Of a stretch of 61,564 nucleotides of DNA, positions 19,872-21,359 are shown piece after piece. The notes under the pieces are model-generated. The model saw only the letters and a program-made list of their open reading frames with translations, did no database searches and was not told where the DNA came from. Numbering within the stretch: position 1 is the stretch's first letter; every line of letters starts with the position of its first letter. This DNA comes from an uncultured delta proteobacterium (GTDB taxonomy: Bacteria > Myxococcota_A > UBA9160 > JAFDET01), in contig CAMYLJ010000032.1 in NCBI GenBank assembly GCA_947259215.1, forward strand, positions 1-61,564, in the 5' to 3' direction. A program made the position numbers and the translations under genes.

Positions 19872-20357
19872 ATGAGCCTGCGGGCCAGCGACGTGATGCG
19901 GCGGAGCCTGGGAATCATCGACGCCTCGGCCAGCCTGGCCGACCTGGAGCGAGCCTTCGCCGACGCAGAGGTCAGCGGCTTCCCGGTGGTGCAGCACGGG
20001 CGGGTCGTCGGTGTGGTGTCGCACACCGATGTCGTGCGTCACCTCGCCGCCAAGGAAGAGCCGCCGCGTCTGTCGTCCTTCTATGCGGACCTGGACGACT
20101 TCTCGAGCGAGGACGCCTCCGAGCACCTCGCCGATCTCGCCGCGCGCCGCGGTCGCACCCTGGACGCGCTGCGGGTCTCCGACGTGATGACCCCGTCGGT
20201 GGTGAGCGTGCCCCCGGACGCCGGGATCGCCGAGGTGGCGAAGATCCTAACCGAGCACGCCATCCATCGGGTGCTCGTGATCGACTCCGACACCCTGGTG
20301 GGTGTGATCTCCGCCCTCGACCTGGCTCGCCTGGTCGCCGAGGGGACGTTGGTTTAG
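19872..20357 (+). CDS. Tandem CBS-domain protein
   Basis: A 161-residue stand-alone protein with two CBS motifs: residues ~5-62 (VSGFPVVQHGRVVGVVSHTDVV) and ~97-158 (HRVLVIDSDTLVGVISALDLA), separated by a linker. CBS pairs bind adenine nucleotides and regulate partner proteins; no catalytic domain is attached. Start at ATG 19872 (MSLRASDVM), directly before the first CBS domain. The last five residues, EGTLV, and the stop are encoded inside a 51-base perfect palindrome shared with the convergent gene. Confidence 0.9.
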   Translation: MSLRASDVMRRSLGIIDASASLADLERAFADAEVSGFPVVQHGRVVGVVSHTDVVRHLAAKEEPPRLSSFYADLDDFSSEDASEHLADLAARRGRTLDALRVSDVMTPSVVSVPPDAGIAEVAKILTEHAIHRVLVIDSDTLVGVISALDLARLVAEGTLV

Positions 20358-20390
20358 AAGTTCAGTGAACTTCTAAACCAACGTCCCCTC
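20340..20390. repeat. Perfect 51-base palindrome spanning two gene ends
   Basis: Bases 20340-20364 are the exact reverse complement of 20366-20390, with a single central G at 20365. The arms encode the final EGTLV and stop of both flanking convergent genes. This is far longer than a normal terminator stem, has almost no loop and no T-tract. It could be a REP/BIME-like mobile palindrome inserted at the gene junction, a cruciform-forming site or a bidirectional terminator. Confidence 0.95.
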
Positions 20391-21359
20391 CTGCCGCAAG
20401 AACGCGAGCGTGCGCCGCACGCCGGTCTCGATGTCGGTCCCGGGCAGCCAGCCGAGCACCTGCCGCAGCCGGACCACGCTTACGGCGGCGTGCGCCATCT
20501 CCTCGGGGCGCGTCGCCAGGGCACCGAAGTCCAGGCGCTCGGGCGCGATGCCCAGGATCGGCGCAGCGATCTCCACGAACGCCCGCACGCGCTGCAGCAC
20601 CCCCGTCGCCAGATTGAGGACCGGCCCAGGCTCCCCGTCGCAGAGGCCCAGGCGCAGCAGACCCTCGGCCACGTCCTCGACGTAGACGAAATCGCGTTCC
20701 TGGAGACCCGCGGAGAGGGCCAGGGGCTCGCTCTCGCCTGCGGCCTGCAGCAGCGAGGGCAGCAGGCGGCCGGAGTGCTCGCCGGCACCATACACCGTGA
20801 AGAGTCGCGCGGTGGACGCCCGCAGGCCGAGCCGCTCGCGGCTCCGGGTGACGGCGCGGGTGCCCGCCAGCTTCGTGCGTCCGTAGACGGTGGTCGGATC
20901 GGGCTCCGATTCCTCGGCCAGGTCGCCGCCCAGGGCGCCGTACTCGAGCGCCGACCCCGCGTGCACCAGCGCGAGTCCGGCCCAGCCCGGGTTCCGGGCG
21001 GCCGCTACGGCGTGGACCAGCTCTTCGACCAGGGCGGCGTTGATGCGCTCGGCGAGCGCGACGTCGCGCTCGTCCCGCTCCACGCCGTAGCCGGCCAGGT
21101 TGAAGGTGATGCTCGGACGGATCGCCGCCAGGACTCCAGCGAGCTCGCCGGGACGCGCGAGATCCGCCGACACGATCTCGCCGCGAACCCCCCAGCGGCG
21201 GAACACCGGCGCGGCGGCCGTGGGATCCCGGACCACCAGGTGGAGGCGCGCCCCCGCCGCGCCCAGCGCACGGGCCACCCAACGCCCGATGAAGCCGCTG
21301 GCCCCGAGCACCACGGCCCCGACCCCCGCGTAGTCCACCGGCGCCTTCGGCACGGGCAC
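20373..21359 (-). CDS. NAD-dependent nucleotide-sugar epimerase/dehydratase or reductase
   Basis: A 328-residue extended SDR. The NAD motif is VVLGASGFIGRWVARAL, the Ser/Tyr/Lys triad is in HAGSALEYG and VYGRTKLAGT (YxxxK intact), and FVYVEDVAEGLL is the typical substrate-side block. Start taken at GTG 21357-21359; another GTG two codons on is possible. It is divergent from the cytidylyltransferase/dehydratase/C-methyltransferase genes, so it is the likely last enzyme (4-keto reductase or epimerase) for a CDP-deoxysugar. Its C-terminal EGTLV is encoded in the palindrome. Confidence 0.88.
   Translation of the reverse strand: MPVPKAPVDYAGVGAVVLGASGFIGRWVARALGAAGARLHLVVRDPTAAAPVFRRWGVRGEIVSADLARPGELAGVLAAIRPSITFNLAGYGVERDERDVALAERINAALVEELVHAVAAARNPGWAGLALVHAGSALEYGALGGDLAEESEPDPTTVYGRTKLAGTRAVTRSRERLGLRASTARLFTVYGAGEHSGRLLPSLLQAAGESEPLALSAGLQERDFVYVEDVAEGLLRLGLCDGEPGPVLNLATGVLQRVRAFVEIAAPILGIAPERLDFGALATRPEEMAHAAVSVVRLRQVLGWLPGTDIETGVRRTLAFLRQEGTLV

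Follow-up and report, generated by a model that had tools for sequence, protein, structure and literature searches.

Several described systems resemble the element reported here. In REPINs and BIMEs, two inverted arms form one hairpin and compensatory arm changes are already known; REP doublets are described as randomly distributed in extragenic space (Bertels and Rainey 2011, PMC3116915). Di Nocera et al. (2013, PMC3733652) described RAYTs flanked by terminal inverted repeats (TIRs) with a GGGGWSAS motif, as well as REPs that lie ≤20 bp from both convergent ORF ends and whose termini provide TAG stops. The CGTC-tagged REPs of the same paper have an 8–9 bp stem, a 4–5 nt loop, an unpaired CGTC end and no transposase. 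Most TIR-flanked RAYT-type transposases belong to TnpA-REP subclass 2.1, and no REP-like sequences were found near subclass 2.1 genes (Quentin et al., PMC6006769).

The locus studied here lies in a 61,564-nt stretch of DNA from an uncultured delta proteobacterium, referred to as the window; its genome is G000. Positions 20340–20390 form an exact inverted repeat of 25 + 1 + 25 nt (arms 20340–20364 and 20366–20390, 100% complementary, 1 nt between them), which bears out the original prediction of a 51-base perfect palindrome with a single central base, and a search of the whole window found no other perfect inverted repeat of that length. The 3' ends of the two convergent ORFs that meet here both read GAG GGG ACG TTG GTT TAG, so that both proteins end in EGTLV and each TAG sits inside one palindrome arm, again as predicted. 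The features of the locus are as follows.

19872–20357, plus strand: tandem CBS-domain protein (Pfam), 161 aa, tail LARLVAE-GTLV
20340–20341, no strand: flanking GA, pairing with TC at 20389–20390, outside the family boundary
20342–20388, no strand: mobile palindrome proper, 47 bp, GGGGACGTTGGTTTAGAAGTTCA-G-TGAACTTCTAAACCAACGTCCCC, a short form without the 16-nt inner stem tip of the 63-bp copies
20342–20364, plus strand: left arm, coding GTLV and the TAG (20355–20357) of the CBS gene
20366–20388, minus strand: right arm, coding GTLV and the TAG (20373–20375, minus strand) of the epimerase gene
20373–21359, minus strand: NAD-dependent epimerase/dehydratase (Pfam), 328 aa, tail RRTLAFLRQE-GTLV

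We place the element proper at 20342–20388 because the family boundary is GGGG...CCCC, with GGGG in all copies; the GA/TC pair outside it belongs to the flanks and matches by coincidence. The suggestion that the palindrome replaced both natural C-termini holds in that the tails are element-coded; those of CBS homologues are variable after LVAEG, ending just past the same helix, and solved homologues of the epimerase align only up to residue 322–325. The replacement is modest in extent. Since the conserved folds of both proteins stop at the element boundary, comparison with homologues suggests that the palindrome probably altered just the last 4–6 residues of each protein.

The palindrome is not locus-specific but belongs to a family of small hairpins with about 30 copies. 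A search of the 5.7-Mb genome for its arm, allowing ≤3 mismatches, gave 54 hits, against 0 in the reversed control. Reading the copies from ~3 kb extracted around each arm site gave 25 complete palindromes, a single transposase cassette and 4 partial copies, two of which lie at contig ends. The family consensus is GGGGACGTTGGTT...AACCAACGTCCCC, mostly 63 bp long; all 25 complete copies start with GGGGACGTTGG and finish with CCAACGTCCCC, and the usual 63-bp form has the inner stem GAAACTGC/GCAGTTTC. Removing 16 nt of the hairpin tip from a 63-bp family member on contig C34 gives the window copy. The AT content of the element exceeds that of the DNA around it, and an Rfam search with the palindrome matched no family.

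Three Y1 genes were found in this genome by a PF01797 profile search, and one of them is bounded by the family's own arms, in line with the expectation that a Y1/RAYT gene would accompany such a family.

C26:33759–34730: RAYT/Y1 transposase, 323 aa, exactly between GGGGACGTTGGTTAAGAAGTTCA and TGAACTTCTGAACCAACGTCCCC, with its own stop codon inside the right arm

This protein keeps the HUH motif (H60, H62) and the catalytic Y119, invariant in 15 homologues. It scores 44 bits against PF01797 (cut-off 23) and 62 bits against the NCBIfam REP_Tyr_transpos equivalog, below the curated cut-off of 80. Profile search called no C-terminal HTH or DnaA_C domain in this RAYT itself; among related RAYTs, L165 carries a C-terminal HTH_23 above cut-off and L153 a weak DnaA_C match. 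Most of the 54 named RAYT homologues with enough flank have inverted repeats starting with a (G)GGGACG-like sequence, and 22 show the full GGGGAC tag. The two further Y1 genes (L171, C26:97391–97954; L066, C58:5613–5912) are without GGGGACGTTG arms.

The relatives provide the main evidence that the RAYT may move the palindromes, namely a genome-by-genome match between RAYT ends and palindromes. The exact G000 arm was not seen in 90 class-mate genomes, three of which contain palindromes with the same outer tag and a different inner arm; in G023 and G088 a RAYT gene is flanked by the respective genome's own arm. Because an orthologue of the epimerase was found in none of 60 relatives, the window's own junction offers no empty site, and other junctions were used instead. 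Pairing of the ETF-QO gene with a convergent inositol-phosphatase-like gene is conserved in about 20 relatives; all of them lack the G000 palindrome at that junction, and the ETF-QO tail GP(D/N/S/E)YxxM is unchanged whether the palindrome is present or not. The CoA-transferase beside the C4 copy stops after RPEGL or a similar tail, at residue 489, in many relatives and ends RPEGL-GDVG here; by this comparison, insertion replaced the CoA-transferase stop codon, adding exactly four residues. The original prediction had named uniqueness to this locus and conservation at orthologous positions as the outcome that would speak for a terminator; the copies are instead dispersed, and orthologous junctions are without the palindrome.

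We propose, with high confidence, that the palindrome is a non-autonomous mobile hairpin of the REPIN/TIR-MITE or REPIN/TIRtron type, belonging to the RAYT element whose two ends carry its arms. The RAYT, a single-strand HUH/Y1 nuclease, would recognise the folded single strand, excise or copy the element and insert it into exposed single-stranded DNA. Transposition is deduced here from sequence comparison rather than observed, and the empty sites come from other species. Survival of copies would then be nearly confined to the 3' ends of genes, and chiefly to convergent junctions, since the cost there is the last residues at most and an entered gene receives an in-frame stop. As the two window genes happen to share an entry phase, both would have gained GTLV and a stop. 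As a by-product, the element probably also serves as an RNA 3'-end hairpin in both directions.

The placement of the copies agrees with the predicted gene-junction habit. By a simple codon-based gene caller, on which all our placement statistics rest, 17 of the 27 copies with both neighbours known are convergent (18 with one weak call), 8 lie at the 3' end of the upstream gene where both neighbours share a strand, and one lies between divergent genes. Background gene order, taken from 461 kb of samples (8% of the same genome) with a home-made codon model and not a standard gene finder, gave 70 convergent pairs among 421 neighbouring gene pairs (17%), the median gap being 16 bp; 0.8% of this sequence falls in convergent gaps. 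The enrichment (17–18/27 vs 70/421) has P about 1e-8 to 1e-7. The data fit both an insertion preference and survival, and either could account for convergent placement.

The element wholly or partly provides the stop codon in 29 of 45 well-supported flanking gene ends, supplying just the G of TA/G in 13 of them. Of the sixteen ORFs that read into an arm, eight enter in phase 0 and the other eight in phase 2; phase 1, which is nearly free of stops in every arm variant, is not used. In 15 of the 16, the ORF enters in the phase where its own arm stops it within ≤28 nt (8.3 expected, P=2e-4, counting the arms of one copy as independent, though they are not fully so). Unrelated proteins share GDVG tails (phase 0) or GTLV tails extended by up to four residues (phase 2) because their ORFs enter the arms in these two phases. 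L068 (C34:9641–9703) alone has an entered arm that gives no early stop: its upstream ORF continues for 51 nt inside the palindrome, with the ending ...GDVGLEVQKLRQFLNF.

A parallel case exists in the sister genus. Genome G002 holds a different, unrelated palindrome, GCAACTAAAGGGAC-N-GTCCCTTTAGTTGC, with >120 arms and absent from G000 and G001, and at G002:C66 a RAYT gene lies between arms of this family. Most of the 20 loci inspected lie between two gene 3' ends, with several tails of GN or SN before the stop; one copy occupies the same ETF-QO junction, giving SN and a stop to the phosphatase-like gene. Members of this family (L280, L334–L353) occur singly or as 92–95-bp pairs. Insertion into a pre-existing palindrome is argued against in G000, where the flanks hardly lengthen the pairing, yet 4 of 18 G002 copies (L336, L340, L342, L348) do have 8–15 bp of extra complementary flank, as if put into an existing hairpin.

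An immobile intrinsic terminator, specific to this locus, active in both directions and conserved between the two genes, would account for a very stable RNA hairpin (-46 kcal/mol, z -10) between convergent genes, and one relative does carry an ordinary T-tailed hairpin at its ETF-QO junction. We consider this origin highly improbable: about 30 copies belong to one sequence family, the window locus has no T tract and no terminator match, and the palindrome is absent at orthologous junctions. Termination as a side function of the palindrome is possible. That the host has domesticated the hairpins as a genome-wide 3'-end module, keeping them as bidirectional terminators or mRNA stabilisers, so that selection explains placement and perfect pairing, is a more serious proposal that we nonetheless judge unlikely. 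It would suit both of those properties, as well as the second, unrelated family at the same site type in the sister genus, once at the same junction. Against it, only about 30 sites are occupied compared with 70 convergent junctions in the sampled 8% of the genome, relatives manage without the palindrome, and the family changes from genus to genus, as mobile DNA would. A DNA-level function, as a cruciform or a binding site for a protein such as gyrase or a nucleoid protein, could draw on the long perfect inverted repeat and its AT-richness; the inner arm varies between copies and genomes and nothing independent speaks in favour, which leaves very little probability for it. Two contigs stop inside a copy, so hairpins do disturb this assembly, but complete copies number 25, at separate loci and with differing inner arms, which makes chance or an assembly artefact negligible as an explanation. 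Chance had originally been set aside on length, a judgement upheld here by length and recurrence together.

The arms themselves bear on how the mobile hairpin is maintained. The left and right arms of the same copy differ by a mean of 0.12 over 23 positions, and arms from different copies by a mean of 1.93; 13 distinct left arms were observed, and one-sided changes are rare (3 among 25 copies). RNA-pairing selection alone, with its G-U intermediates, would not predict this scarcity, a further point against domestication. In quasipalindromes, template switching copies one arm from the other (PMC7202029), and the rarity of one-sided changes suggests that one arm may be copied from the other here in the same manner. 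An extension that we put forward only tentatively is a mobile two-way 'stop module', in which hairpin template switching keeps the arms identical, so that a stop mutation in one arm enters the other and, as the family spreads, unrelated proteins at convergent junctions acquire matched stops and C-terminal tags (GTLV, GDVG). In one copy (L092, C5:30965–31043), 8 bp are duplicated in tandem (CAGTTGTT), and the two arms carry this duplication as mirror images.

The RAYT-linked, dispersed side of the predicted REP/BIME-type identity stands, since the family has many inverted-arm hairpins, and their arms also flank a RAYT that has the HUH motif and the catalytic tyrosine. The classical REP side does not, and the element is nearer the TIR type. 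The family tag GGGGACG is paired and a single 23-nt arm folds at 0 kcal/mol, with no hairpin of its own, which rules out a classical GTAG REP; a stem of 23–31 bp that includes CGTC and the presence of a transposase rule out a CGTC-tagged REP. The two inverted arms forming one hairpin, the compensatory changes and the RAYT in the genome recall REPINs and BIMEs, but here there is no GTAG tag or per-arm hairpin, copies number in the tens and they sit at gene 3' ends rather than at random. TIRtrons/TIRYTs are alike in having a RAYT-type Y1 transposase between long TIRs that start GGGG(A/T)(C/G) and are also dispersed through the genome; of their GGGGWSAS motif, the first six letters fit GGGGACGT (GGGGAC) and the last two differ, and the dispersed units here are perfect single hairpins on gene ends. 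C-terminal HTH domains, here in related RAYTs, recall subclass 2.1. The conv-REPs of PMC3733652 likewise have both ORF 3' ends nearby and supply stop codons from their termini, whereas here the arm itself codes GTLV or GDVG tails, in both neighbours at some loci, in a reading phase that matches the arm variant. Rickettsia palindromic elements (RPEs, named in PMC3733652 and compared by description only) are also palindromes turned protein-coding; they lie inside ORFs, whereas the G000 palindromes end them.

The element thus fits a population of REPIN-like hairpins belonging to a TIR-type RAYT. It is a variation on a known kind of element, and parts of its pattern have been published for REPs elsewhere. 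Less usual are the perfect arms that change in mirror fashion, the lack of a per-arm hairpin, the near-exclusive gene 3'-end placement and ORF entry almost only in quick-stop frames. It ties a palindrome population to a TIR-type RAYT, a group reported before without nearby REP-like sequences (PMC6006769), in uncultured relatives of Myxococcota/deltaproteobacteria. It is also a clear case of mobile DNA on gene 3' ends writing both neighbours' C-termini, with an unrelated counterpart in a sister genus, and opens to testing both how long palindromes stay perfect and whether placement at gene ends reflects a choice by RAYTs or survival of their products only there.

About 20% of G000 convergent pairs (L258–L277 and the window) overlap by exactly 4 bp, as expected because their stop codons share CTAG. 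Several palindromes read CTA/GGGG...CCCC/TAG, as though inserted into a shared CTAG.
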